From contig NZ_OAML01000003.1 of assembly GCF_900199435.1 (NCBI RefSeq), forward strand, positions 823,166 through 887,165: 64,000 bases of DNA. The letters are read 5' to 3'. Of the stretch, positions 2,780-44,348 are shown piece after piece (within the stretch, counting starts at the first letter, position 1; every line of letters begins with the position of its first letter). This DNA comes from Pygmaiobacter massiliensis. GTDB lineage: Bacteria > Bacillota > Clostridia > Oscillospirales > Ruminococcaceae. Both the position numbers and the translations under genes were made by a program. The notes below the pieces were generated by a model, which saw nothing but the letters and a program-made list of their open reading frames with translations, ran no database searches and was not told the origin of the DNA.

Positions 2780-3514
2780 GTGAGACCTACGATAGGCTTG
2801 ACCCCGCTTTATGACGAAGAAAAGCAGAGCTTTTGGATGCTGCCCGGTTACTTAGAAATCTTAGAGCAGTGCGGAGCGGCCCCGATGATTTTACCGCTGA
2901 CGGCAAACACCGAAGTGTTAGAAGCCTGCTTTGCCCTTTGCGACGGCCTGCTCCTTACCGGAGGGCAAGACGTAGCTCCGTCATTTTATGGTGCGGAAAT
3001 GCAAGAAACATGTGGGGCTGTTTGCCCCTCGCGCGACGCAATGGAAGCGGAATTGCTGCGTCGCGCATTGGCAATGAATTGCCCGGTACTGGGCGTTTGC
3101 AGGGGACTTCAATTTTTGAACGCTGCACTGGGCGGCACGCTTTATCAGGATTTGCCCACCGAGCGACGAAGCACCGTAGAGCACCATATGGCACCGCCTT
3201 ACGACCGGGCGGTACATAAGGTGACGGTTGTGGCAGATACGCTGCTGAGCGAAATTTTGCAGAAAAAAGAGCTGGGCGTAAACAGCTACCATCACCAGGG
3301 AATCAGTAAACTGGCACCCGCCCTGCGTGAGATGGCGCACGCGGCGGACGGATTGATAGAAGCCGCATATCTGCCGGAAAAGCGCTTTGTAGCAGGGGTG
3401 CAATGGCACCCGGAGTTTGCTTTTCGCAAAGATCCCGATAGCGTAAAACTGGCGCAGGCTTTTGTAAATGCGTGCGCTGAGAACCGTCAAAAAAAATATT
3501 GCAGCAGGTATTGA
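2780..3514 (+). CDS. Class I glutamine amidotransferase-like gamma-glutamyl hydrolase (peptidase C26, PuuD-like)
   Basis: A 244-residue cytosolic enzyme starting at GTG 2780 behind GGGAGGG. It matches the family that hydrolyses gamma-glutamyl bonds such as gamma-glutamyl-GABA, releasing glutamate. The nucleophile elbow GVCRGLQFLNAALGG carries Cys107, and the catalytic His210 and Glu212 are in GVQWHPEF. LLTGGQDVAPSFYG near residues 58-71 is the family's glycine-rich oxyanion region. Full length. It is preceded by an attenuator of the same type as the next operon's and its stop codon overlaps that operon's -35 box, so both probably belong to one nitrogen-scavenging response (inference). The actual gamma-glutamyl substrate is unknown; no puuABC genes are nearby. 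Confidence 0.85.
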   Translation: MRPTIGLTPLYDEEKQSFWMLPGYLEILEQCGAAPMILPLTANTEVLEACFALCDGLLLTGGQDVAPSFYGAEMQETCGAVCPSRDAMEAELLRRALAMNCPVLGVCRGLQFLNAALGGTLYQDLPTERRSTVEHHMAPPYDRAVHKVTVVADTLLSEILQKKELGVNSYHHQGISKLAPALREMAHAADGLIEAAYLPEKRFVAGVQWHPEFAFRKDPDSVKLAQAFVNACAENRQKKYCSRY

Positions 3515-3539
3515 CAAAGCAAAAAGTGGACATTATAAT
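3511..3539 (+). promoter_or_regulatory. Consensus sigma-A promoter of the amino-acid ABC operon
   Basis: TTGACA (3511-3516), 17-base spacer, TATAAT (3534-3539): a perfect consensus. The TGA of TTGACA is the stop codon of the preceding hydrolase gene. Start of transcription near 3546, at the first base of terminator stem 1. Confidence 0.85.
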
Positions 3540-3545
3540 AAATCC

Positions 3546-3593
3546 AACATCAAAGGCGATGGCATATTTCGTGCTCGCGTTTGATGTTTTTTT
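3546..3593 (+). terminator. Leader attenuator 1: hexaloop hairpin overlapping terminator 1
   Basis: Terminator stem AACATCAAAGGCGA (3546-3559) pairs with TCGCGTTTGATGTT (3575-3588), with one G-G mismatch, then T7 (3587-3593). Its 5' arm contains the alternative hairpin CATC-AAAGGC-GATG (3548-3561, 4 bp, hexaloop AAAGGC), which cannot coexist with the terminator. Situated at the very start of the transcript. The 15-mer CATCAAAGGCGATGG is repeated exactly in attenuator 2. Confidence 0.75.
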
Positions 3594-3602
3594 ACCCTCT
3601 GT

Positions 3603-3654
3603 GCGGCATCAAAGGCGATGGATTATAAAAAGCCATCCTTTGGTGCCGCTTTTT
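3603..3654 (+). terminator. Leader attenuator 2: second copy of hexaloop hairpin overlapping terminator 2
   Basis: A 17-bp stem, 3603-3621 with 3633-3649 (one G-U pair, a two-base CG bulge at 3616-3617), followed by T5 (3650-3654). The 5' arm again holds CATC-AAAGGC-GATG (3607-3620). Two successive terminators between a consensus promoter and the gene at 3702 mean strong default repression with antitermination as the probable switch. Two hexaloop hairpins with A1 and G4 resemble an ANTAR-regulator target (known for nitrogen genes in Clostridia); assignment is inference. Confidence 0.75.
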
Positions 3655-3701
3655 AGTACAGGGGAAACAGAGCTTTTATAGAGGAAAGGGAGAGAATGAG
3701 T

Positions 3702-4520
3702 ATGAAAAAATATCTTGCATGGGCAGCTGCGCTACTGATGGCAGCCAGCCTCGCCGGATGCGGCAGCACAGCAACAAGCAGTTCTGCAGCAAGCAAGGCA
3801 GAAAGCGGAACGGGAACCGCTTCTTCTGCCGCAGCAAAAAGTGACAAAGTGTGGATTATTACAACCGATACCGCATTTATGCCGTTTGAGTATACCGACG
3901 AAAGCGGGAAGTTCGTTGGTATCGACGTGGATATTCTGGAAGCGGTTGCAAAAGACCAGGGCTTTGCATATGATTTACAGTCGATTGGCTGGGATGGCGC
4001 CGTTGCCGCAGTGCAGTCCGGGCAGGCCGATGCCATTATTGCGGGTGCATCTATTAAGCAGGAACGCATTGATTCCGGCTGGGTGTTTTCTGAAGGCTAT
4101 TACAATGCCACCCAGACCATTGCAGTGGCAGCGGATTCTAACATTGCAAAATGGGAAGATTTGAGCGGCAAAAATGTAGCTGTGAAAAACGGCACCATCG
4201 GCTGCGATTATGCCGAGAGTATGAAGGATAAGTACGGATTTACCGTAACCAAATTTGAGGATTCCCCGACCATGTATCAGGATGTCATCGCGGGCAACTC
4301 GGTGGCATGCTTTGACGATACACCGGTTATGGCAGCTAACATCAAGCAGCATGGCCTTGCTTTGAAAATTCCGGATGGATTTGAAAACGAGGGTGCACCT
4401 TATGGCTTTGCCATTATGAACAAAGACAATCAGGTGCTATTGGATATGTTTAACGCCGGCCTTGCTAACATTAAAGCAAATGGCACCTATGACAAAATTC
4501 TTGAAAAATATTTAGGCTAG
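3702..4520 (+). CDS. Glutamine-type amino-acid ABC transporter, substrate-binding lipoprotein
   Basis: A 272-residue SBP family-3 protein. I choose ATG 3702 (MKKYLAWAAA) because AAGGGAG lies 9 bases upstream; ATG 3696 would leave only 3 bases. Lipobox LAGC (Cys20) and a Ser/Ala linker to about residue 45 anchor it outside the membrane. The mature domain has the family pattern TAFMPFEYTDESGKFVGIDV (about 55-74), the QSGQADAIIAG loop, and GKNVAVKNGTIG at the lobe hinge. First gene of a three-gene polar amino-acid ABC operon; glutamine or a related amino acid is likely. Expression is expected to depend on read-through of two leader terminators. Confidence 0.9.
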   Translation: MKKYLAWAAALLMAASLAGCGSTATSSSAASKAESGTGTASSAAAKSDKVWIITTDTAFMPFEYTDESGKFVGIDVDILEAVAKDQGFAYDLQSIGWDGAVAAVQSGQADAIIAGASIKQERIDSGWVFSEGYYNATQTIAVAADSNIAKWEDLSGKNVAVKNGTIGCDYAESMKDKYGFTVTKFEDSPTMYQDVIAGNSVACFDDTPVMAANIKQHGLALKIPDGFENEGAPYGFAIMNKDNQVLLDMFNAGLANIKANGTYDKILEKYLG

Positions 4521-4534
4521 CGACTGAGTGAAGT

Positions 4535-4580
4535 CAAAAGGCGCACGGCAAAACCCTCTGGGTGTCCTGTGCGCCTTTTG
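4535..4580 (+). promoter_or_regulatory. Intercistronic hairpin after the binding-protein gene
   Basis: CAAAAGGCGCAC / GTGCGCCTTTTG (12 bp, extended by a G-U and a G-C pair), 15 bases after the binding-protein stop, followed by CTTTTCG. Probably an mRNA stabiliser or partial terminator setting the ratio of binding protein to permease. Confidence 0.75.
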
Positions 4581-4618
4581 CTTTTCGCTGATACCACCAA
4601 GAAAGGAGGACCTCTGCC

Positions 4619-5284
4619 ATGGTAAAGATTGTTCAAGTCTATGGCGGTATGTTGATGACGGCTATGGGGCAGACATTGCTGCTTGCGCTGTTATCGCTAT
4701 TTTTCGCATCTATCCTTGGGCTTGTTTTCGGCATGTTGAAAGTAGTGCCGAATAAAGTATGTAATTTTATTGGTATGGTGTATGTGGACGCGATTCGCGG
4801 ATGGCCGCTTATCGTACTCGCATTTTTTGTTTATTTTACCTTTCCGGCATTTGTACAGGGGCTGGGCTATCGCAGCTTTCGCCTTACGAGTTTGCAGGCC
4901 GGAACCATTGCGCTTGCACTGAACTGCGGCGCATATATGGCTGAAATTATCCGCGCCGGTATTCAAAGCGTAGACGGCGGTCAGATGGAGGCTGCACGAA
5001 GTCTGGGGCTTCCTTACATTACAAGCATGCGCAAAGTAGTGTTGCCGCAAGCGGTGCGTACCATGATACCCAGTATCATCAACCAGTTTATCATCACTTT
5101 AAAAGATACGTCGATTTTATCCGCGATCGGGTTTCCCGAGCTGACCAATGCCACAAAAACCATTGTGGCCAATACGATGAATACCCAAGGATGGATGGTA
5201 GCCGGGCTGATGTATATGGTAGTAATTATATTGCTTAGTAAGCTGTCAGGCTACATAGAAAGAAGGGTAAGGTATGCACAGTAA
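4619..5284 (+). CDS. Polar amino-acid ABC transporter permease
   Basis: A 221-residue inner-membrane subunit of the HisMQ/GlnP type. Start ATG 4619 is preceded by AAGAAAGGAGG. About five hydrophobic segments are visible, and the EAA loop that contacts the ATPase is [26 protein letters not shown] (about 120-145), the hallmark of this family, preceded by [15 protein letters not shown]. Only one permease gene is present, so it would work as a homodimer. It overlaps the ATPase gene by 11 bases, indicating translational coupling. Confidence 0.92.
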
Positions 5285-6011
5285 TGTGAAAATTTCGGTG
5301 CAAGGTCTGAAAAAGAGCTTTGAAAAGCTGGAAGTGCTGAAGAATATTACGCTGGATATCACCGAAGGGGAAGTGGTAGTGCTGTTGGGCCCATCTGGCA
5401 GCGGTAAATCGACTTTTCTTCGCTGCCTCAACCAGCTGGAAACCGTTACCGATGGCACCATACTGGTAGACGACACCGACATCACCGCAAAGCACACAGA
5501 TATGAATCAGGTACGTGAAAGTGTAGGGATGGTTTTTCAGCACTTCAATCTCTTTCATCATCTCACGGTATTAGAGAATATGACTCTTGCTCCGGTGCAG
5601 CTGAAAAAAGCAAATCGGCATCAGGCAGAGCAAACCGCCTTGCAGTTGTTGCAGCGGGTAGGCCTTGCAGATAAAGCGACAGTGCGCCCAGCACAACTTT
5701 CCGGTGGACAAAAACAGCGTGTGGCAATTGCCCGTGCGCTTTGTATGCAGCCCGACATTATGCTTTTTGATGAGCCAACCAGCGCGCTCGATCCCGAAAT
5801 GGTGGGTGAAGTGCTGGCTGTTATGAAAAATCTGGCACGCGCGGGCATGACGATGGTGGTAGTAACTCATGAAATCGGCTTTGCGCGCGAAGTGGCAGAC
5901 CGAGTGATTTTTATGGAAGGCGGGTATATTATAGAGCAGGGCGCCGCAAAAGAAGTGATTGATCATCCCCATGAGCCACGCACTGTCGACTTTTTAAGTA
6001 AAGTACTGTAA
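5274..6011 (+). CDS. Polar amino-acid ABC transporter ATP-binding protein (GlnQ-like)
   Basis: A 245-residue ATPase energising amino-acid import. Walker [10 protein letters not shown] (39-47), Q-loop VFQHFNLF, signature [15 protein letters not shown] and Walker [20 protein letters not shown] are all intact, as is the switch His in VVTHEIGFA. The LDPEMVGEV sequence after Walker B is typical of amino-acid importers. Last gene of the operon that starts at 3702; terminator at 6054-6090. Confidence 0.93.
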
Positions 6012-33295: not shown

Positions 33296-33321
33296 GAAGA
33301 CCTCAATTGAATATAACGTTG

Positions 33322-33386
33322 CCAATATAGGTTTGGATAATCTGGCCCAAATGTTTCTACCGCACGCCGTAAGTTGCGACTATTGG
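33322..33386 (+). promoter_or_regulatory. Purine riboswitch aptamer (guanine class, variant loops)
   Basis: P1 is CCAATA / TATTGG (33322-33327 with 33381-33386). Junction J2/3 is TTTCTACC, and J3/1 is GACTAT, whose C corresponds to position 74 that pairs with guanine (adenine riboswitches have U). The third loop contains CCGTAA, as in canonical aptamers. P3 is CGCA/TGCG. Unusual: the second loop reads GATAATCTGG rather than GATATGG, about three bases longer. It precedes a terminator and a BMP-family nucleoside transporter, so ligand binding most likely switches the operon off. Guanine, hypoxanthine or 2'-deoxyguanosine are possible. Confidence 0.88.
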
Positions 33387-33426
33387 TTTCTTGAAATTTG
33401 CCCGTTATGGGTGAATTATGCTGGCA

Positions 33427-44248: not shown

Positions 44249-44348
44249 TGGACAGAGTAGAATCAGCGCGTTAAGTGTCTGCAGATGGGAGGTTGCTGCA
44301 GAACGAAAAGGCAAACCACCTTGCGGTGCTGGTTCGCTTCCGCTGCCA
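44249..44348 (+). promoter_or_regulatory. Tetrahydrofolate (THF) riboswitch
   Basis: P1 is TGGaCAG / CTGCCA (44249-44255 with 44343-44348). The internal sequences match the class: AGAGTAGA, GCGCGTTAAGTGT, GATGGGAGGTTG, GAACGAAAAG, GGTTCGC and CCGCTGCCAC. Between it and the folT start lie a second hairpin (44352-44376 region) and ACCT (44378-44381) able to pair with the AGGT of the ribosome binding site GGAGG (44388-44393), so control is probably translational. THF would shut off folate uptake. Confidence 0.92.

Follow-up and report, generated by a model that had tools for sequence, protein, structure and literature searches.

A short RNA module, in which a hairpin with an ANNGNN hexaloop overlaps an intrinsic terminator, is found twice in front of a glutamine-type ABC transporter operon in the 64,000-nucleotide stretch of Pygmaiobacter massiliensis DNA that was analysed (the window), and again upstream of other nitrogen operons in this species and its relatives. 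Each module is very likely an attenuator with a single-hexaloop antiterminator for an ANTAR protein, such that nitrogen shortage, acting through an ANTAR protein linked to glnA, would lead to read-through; binding is predicted, and the direction of the response is deduced from gene content. The evidence consists of the anatomy of the module, the covariation of its stem, the genes that it precedes, the co-occurrence and linkage with ANTAR genes, and the predicted protein fold. We also consider it probable that a clade of glnA-linked ANTAR proteins with a pseudo-receiver domain controls the core nitrogen regulon through such single 5'-end hexaloops, to which binding is likewise predicted, and that a recruitment hairpin is not generally required. 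That this leader is an ANTAR target had been suggested in a first-pass annotation, and all computational checks proposed there support it.

Tandem modules in the transporter leader

The transporter genes, on the forward strand like all window features given here, encode a family 3 solute-binding protein of the glutamine/polar amino acid type (3696–4520; Pfam PF00497, best NCBIfam model GlnH, below cut-off), a GlnP-like ABC permease (4619–5284) and a GlnQ-like ABC ATPase (5274–6011), the latter two assigned by family search. Their predicted promoter (3511–3539) is indeed the perfect TTGACA-17-TATAAT promoter described earlier, with the -35 hexamer at 3511–3516, a spacer of 17 nt and the -10 hexamer at 3534–3539. 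The two terminators that were said to carry an identical 15-mer in their 5' arms are also present, as CATCAAAGGCGATGG occurs at 3548–3562 and at 3607–3621. Folded alone, each 15-mer forms CATC[AAAGGC]GATG (-3.3 and -3.1 kcal/mol); these hairpins, candidate antiterminators 1 (3548–3561) and 2 (3607–3620), match our covariance model with E-values, which are rough throughout, of 3.3e-4 and 6.2e-5, respectively. In context, the leader folds into terminator 1 (3546–3593; arms 3546–3559 and 3575–3588, then a T-run) at -20.0 kcal/mol and terminator 2 (3603–3654; GCGGCATCAAAGG.. / ..CCTTTGGTGCCGC and a T-run) at -20.6 kcal/mol. Enforcing the hexaloops yields only -7.2 and -7.6 kcal/mol, the terminators being about 13 kcal/mol more stable, and because the enforced folds are so much weaker the two states are mutually exclusive, which bears out the proposed incompatibility. 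The 115-nt leader has a stability z-score of -5.4, and none of 200 shuffles was equally stable.

A third module, overlooked by the first-pass annotation, lies 0.8 kb upstream of the tandem with its own promoter and terminator. It consists of a predicted TTGCAT-17-TATAAT promoter (2677–2705), the hairpin AGAC[AAAGGC]GTCT (2714–2727; covariance model E-value 1.7e-5) and an overlapping intrinsic terminator (2718–2760; AAAGGCGTCTGTTC / GAACAGGTGCCTTT and a T-run; -18.5 kcal/mol). It is followed by a gene for a Peptidase C26 protein resembling gamma-glutamyl-GABA hydrolase (PuuD-like; 2780–3514; Pfam PF07722, E-value 2.8e-63), which precedes the transporter genes. In the gap between the binding-protein and permease genes, a terminator-like hairpin without a hexaloop (AAAAGGCGCAC..GTGCGCCTTTT, approximately 4537–4585) may set the ratio of expression of these two proteins.

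Two identical A1/G4 hexaloops in one leader could be read as a canonical dual-hexaloop ANTAR target, the form that has been described (PMC3369931), with the window hairpins as P1 and P2 and one dimer binding both. We regard this as highly unlikely, as the linker between them (3562–3606) measures 45 nt, against 5–12 nt in eut leaders, where 14 nt already impairs the response (PMC3369931), and the 2–25 nt accepted in actinobacteria. Moreover, terminator 1 sits between the two hairpins, and modules are single elsewhere in this genome as well as in orthologous leaders. Among all carriers of the transporter leader only this window has two modules; since every other carrier has one, and given the 45-nt linker, the tandem is best read as a local duplication rather than a P1-P2 pair. 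The first-pass annotation had thus been right that each hairpin has its own terminator, but not that this is unusual, since one hexaloop per terminator is the rule in these bacteria.

The exact 15-mer has no other copy in this genome and none in 60 relatives; the module itself recurs with different stems. A fixed 15-mer pattern, applied to 397 genomes, was discarded as a search motif, being too rigid for a stem that varies: its real modules lie only upstream of orthologues of this transporter, and the remaining matches apparently lie within coding genes. A further stem, CCTCTGT / ACAGGGG (3596–3602 with 3658–3664), surrounds terminator 2 and could form only after read-through; in the orthologous leaders L054 and L057–L062 the single module seems to be enclosed by a similar stem of different sequence.

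Conservation of the module and the genes it precedes

The module can be defined as a promoter, a stem of 3–6 bp closed by a C-G pair, a hexaloop ANNGNN and an overlapping terminator. Orthologous transporter leaders, examined as entire upstream regions, contain CTATC[AAGGGC]GATAG in Gemmiger avistercoris, CATC[AGAGGC]GGTG and CGAC[ACGGGC]GTCG in two further cases, and TATC[AAAGGC]GATA or TATC[AAGGGC]GATA in six genomes of the family, while in the closest relative GAAC[AAAGGC]GTTC precedes the C26 gene. Such a hairpin is absent from the upstream regions read for several other transporter orthologues. Hexaloops include AAAGGC, AAGGGC, AATGGC, AATGGT, AACGGC, AAAGGT, AAAGGA and AAAGAC, with positions 1 and 4 invariant. 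In L048 and L051 (upstream of position 3001), from other clostridia, the leader of the orthologous transporter is of another kind: a conserved element resembling an attenuator, AAACCTTT..ATAGGTTT followed by a T-run, stands there behind a TTGACA/TATAAT promoter.

The stem begins 4–17 nt, mostly 6–12 nt, past the -10 hexamer of predicted promoters that are nearly all close to consensus, and would therefore lie within a few bases of the RNA start expected from these promoters. So near to the expected start there is no space for an upstream hairpin. A second hexaloop was found neither upstream nor downstream within any module; in some relatives (L057–L062) the spacer of the transporter leader is longer, and no hexaloop is visible there. 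Overlap with, and exclusion of, an intrinsic terminator was seen in the modules tested, and in most of them enforced folding leaves the upper terminator stem as a separate hairpin, so that the shortened terminator is off the U-run. Open reading frames begin in some leaders (L058, L060), but their lack of conservation in L054, L061 and L062 led us to reject a leader peptide.

A conserved RNA with a terminator switch before nitrogen genes is also what one would expect of a small riboswitch sensing glutamine or ammonia directly. We find this extremely improbable, as only the 14-nt hairpin is conserved and the stretch from there to the 3' arm of the terminator is not, and no Rfam family matches the leader at gathering or relaxed thresholds. 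The guanidine-II (mini-ykkC) riboswitch shares the small tandem hairpins before a transporter, but the loop is AAAGGC (ANNGNN) rather than ACGR, as the first-pass annotation had noted; single modules are the rule, and Rfam gives no match to it.

Alignment of 13 modules showed all 52 stem cells paired, with three of the four pairs altered on both sides and the closing C-G pair invariant; none of 500 shuffles matched the percentage of paired cells or the covariation score. Some rows of this alignment had been chosen with the stem in mind, and therefore two less biased tests were run, both on loci that came via the covariance model or the ANTAR gene and do not form a random sample: among CANRGGNG octamers gathered blind to the stem, a fully paired stem was present in 45 of 49 behind a promoter versus 101 of 954 elsewhere (Fisher p = 4e-36), and among hairpins with any loop of 4–8 nt, located between a promoter on the 5' side and an overlapping terminator in module- and ANTAR-anchored regions, 47 of 49 hexaloop matches had A1 and G4. 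The two exceptions come from reading the same hairpins in a shifted register, and nearly all 8-nt loops are these hairpins with one pair fewer. Compensatory stem changes around a constant A1 and G4, as had been proposed for a check in relatives, are thus observed. They also bear on the idea of a DNA operator near +1, bound by a repressor and followed by a plain terminator, which would fit the perfect DNA palindrome that adjoins the promoter in the window. An operator would keep its arms conserved, whereas here the arms change fully yet stay complementary, G-U pairs included (L055), and it is the asymmetric centre that is constant; to this explanation we give hardly any credence.

The regulon was delineated by a search with a loop and terminator pattern, and then with the covariance model built from the 13 modules. 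Besides the three modules of the window, the model identified asnB (E-value 6.7e-7) and asnA-glnN (1.7e-5) in this genome; the next match has an E-value of 0.0135, and from there on the matches look like chance or plain terminators and were set aside. Direct reading added the glnA-ANTAR-pyrG operon and amtB, which the model missed, the former probably owing to its long terminator loop and the latter probably because its stem has only 3 bp. This list is based on searches and may be incomplete, and gene names outside the window were taken from translated N-termini read by eye, not from a family search. Within the family, 32 of 397 genomes were positive with the covariance model; the inspected matches lie upstream of glnN, asnA, amtB and gltB-type genes, all but one with a paired hairpin. 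A scan of the class (231 genomes) extended this to other families, again with glnN, amtB and gltB-type operons behind the module; the matches L202, L203, L204, L210, L211, L213 and L214 were not counted as clear cases. The viral contigs searched gave no match. The proposed covariance search of relatives has therefore placed the module before nitrogen operons (glnN, asnA, amtB and gltB/glnA) across family and class, and judging from these sequences it appears to mark a glutamine/asparagine regulon in this and related gut clostridia.

The ANTAR protein encoded with glnA

A search for ANTAR domains (PF03861), also suggested beforehand, revealed a single gene above the curated cut-off in this genome, encoding a protein with a receiver domain and a coiled coil. 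It is part of the glnA operon that itself bears the module, and is divergent from asnA-glnN. All 32 module-positive genomes of the family have an ANTAR gene, versus 257 of the 365 others (about 70%; p = 2e-5, or 0.002 by genus). That so many genomes in which no module was detected also have one speaks against the link; the covariance model misses long-loop modules. Conversely, among 20 ANTAR regions fetched by protein alone, modules were found in 13 with the strict pattern and in one more (L188) with relaxed loops, but not in L183, L185, L187 and L199, nor in the EutV-like L182 and L184, again a point against. The ANTAR proteins linked to modules form a glnA-linked clade, whose RNA-binding helix carries EAH..IEKQAMD. 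In this protein and most of the clade the phospho-acceptor Asp is replaced by Asn, with Asp or Ser in single members.

A dual hexaloop is absent from 19 of the 20 ANTAR regions and from L032. The only match, which shows that the scan was able to detect one, is in the eut-type locus L182, also from this family, where hexaloops AACGGC and AACGAA lie on the minus strand at L182:6410, downstream of the EutV-like gene and a large ORF.

The AlphaFold model of the ANTAR protein (pLDDT 93.5) has the EutV-RNA complex 6ww6 as its best Foldseek match. Among the listed RNA contacts of EutV (PMC8934654), Lys149, Glu160, Met172 and Arg175 are kept, and Tyr164 and Arg168 are replaced by His and Glu. The same two replacements are seen in the linked clade, and this partial conservation of contacts is a counterpoint to ANTAR binding and would agree with a different RNA-binding protein reading the hexaloop, the ANTAR link being incidental. 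Such a protein seems very unlikely, given that an A1/G4 hexaloop closed by a C-G pair is the ANTAR signature, and given the co-occurrence in 32 of 32 genomes and the linkage in one operon.

Proposed mechanism and relation to known systems

We propose that by default the nascent RNA would fold into the terminator, ending transcription about 45 nt past the start. Under nitrogen (glutamine) shortage, the glnA-linked ANTAR protein would take the hexaloop hairpin upon its emergence, recognising A1, a flipped-out G4 and the C-G closing pair; with this hairpin bound, the terminator stem would lose its lower half next to the U-run, and the polymerase would read on. In the transporter operon of the window, two such gates in series would give a tighter off state. 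Since its receiver domain mostly lacks the phospho-acceptor aspartate, the ANTAR protein may receive its signal from a partner protein, with glutamine synthetase itself as one possibility.

ANTAR antitermination is known to work in this way, a protein on a hexaloop hairpin preventing termination (PMC3369931, PMC3369936). EutV/EutW, acting on the eutP, eutG, eutS and eutA leaders, resemble the present system in the A1/G4 hexaloop, the C-G closing pair, the terminator-excluding hairpin, the presence of the ANTAR protein in the genome and its predicted fold, but the modules described here have one hexaloop, at the 5' end of the RNA and without a recruitment hairpin, and their ANTAR protein has a pseudo-receiver. 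EutV antitermination needs both hairpins and is abolished by a longer linker (PMC3369931, PMC8934654), and since this is so a single hairpin may be insufficient for an ANTAR protein. On the other hand, EutV holds one hexaloop at a time, and the same study redefined the minimal ANTAR target as a single hexaloop and encouraged bioinformatic studies of single sites (PMC8934654); in the open-access literature single-hexaloop ANTAR targets are found only as a suggestion. NasR-nasF and AmiR-amiE share ANTAR antitermination of nitrogen genes, and AmiR also a pseudo-receiver under the control of a partner protein, but their targets differ and two hexaloops have been described in their leaders (PMC3369931, PMC3369936). 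The ANTAR nitrogen regulons predicted by Ramesh 2012 in Desulfotomaculum and Pelobacter likewise comprise several nitrogen operons per genome, some with multiple attenuators, but were obtained with a dual-hairpin model that is by definition blind to single modules.

The modules would represent a natural and widespread set of antiterminators before well-understood genes, each with a single hexaloop where two had been considered necessary. They are also candidates for a master nitrogen switch in this large group of gut bacteria. They supply a search motif that dual-hairpin models exclude by definition, and make directly testable why eut leaders require P1. Elsewhere in the window, a purine riboswitch (33303–33402, 43.7 bits) and a THF riboswitch (44251–44347, 80 bits) were identified on the forward strand, both above the Rfam threshold.
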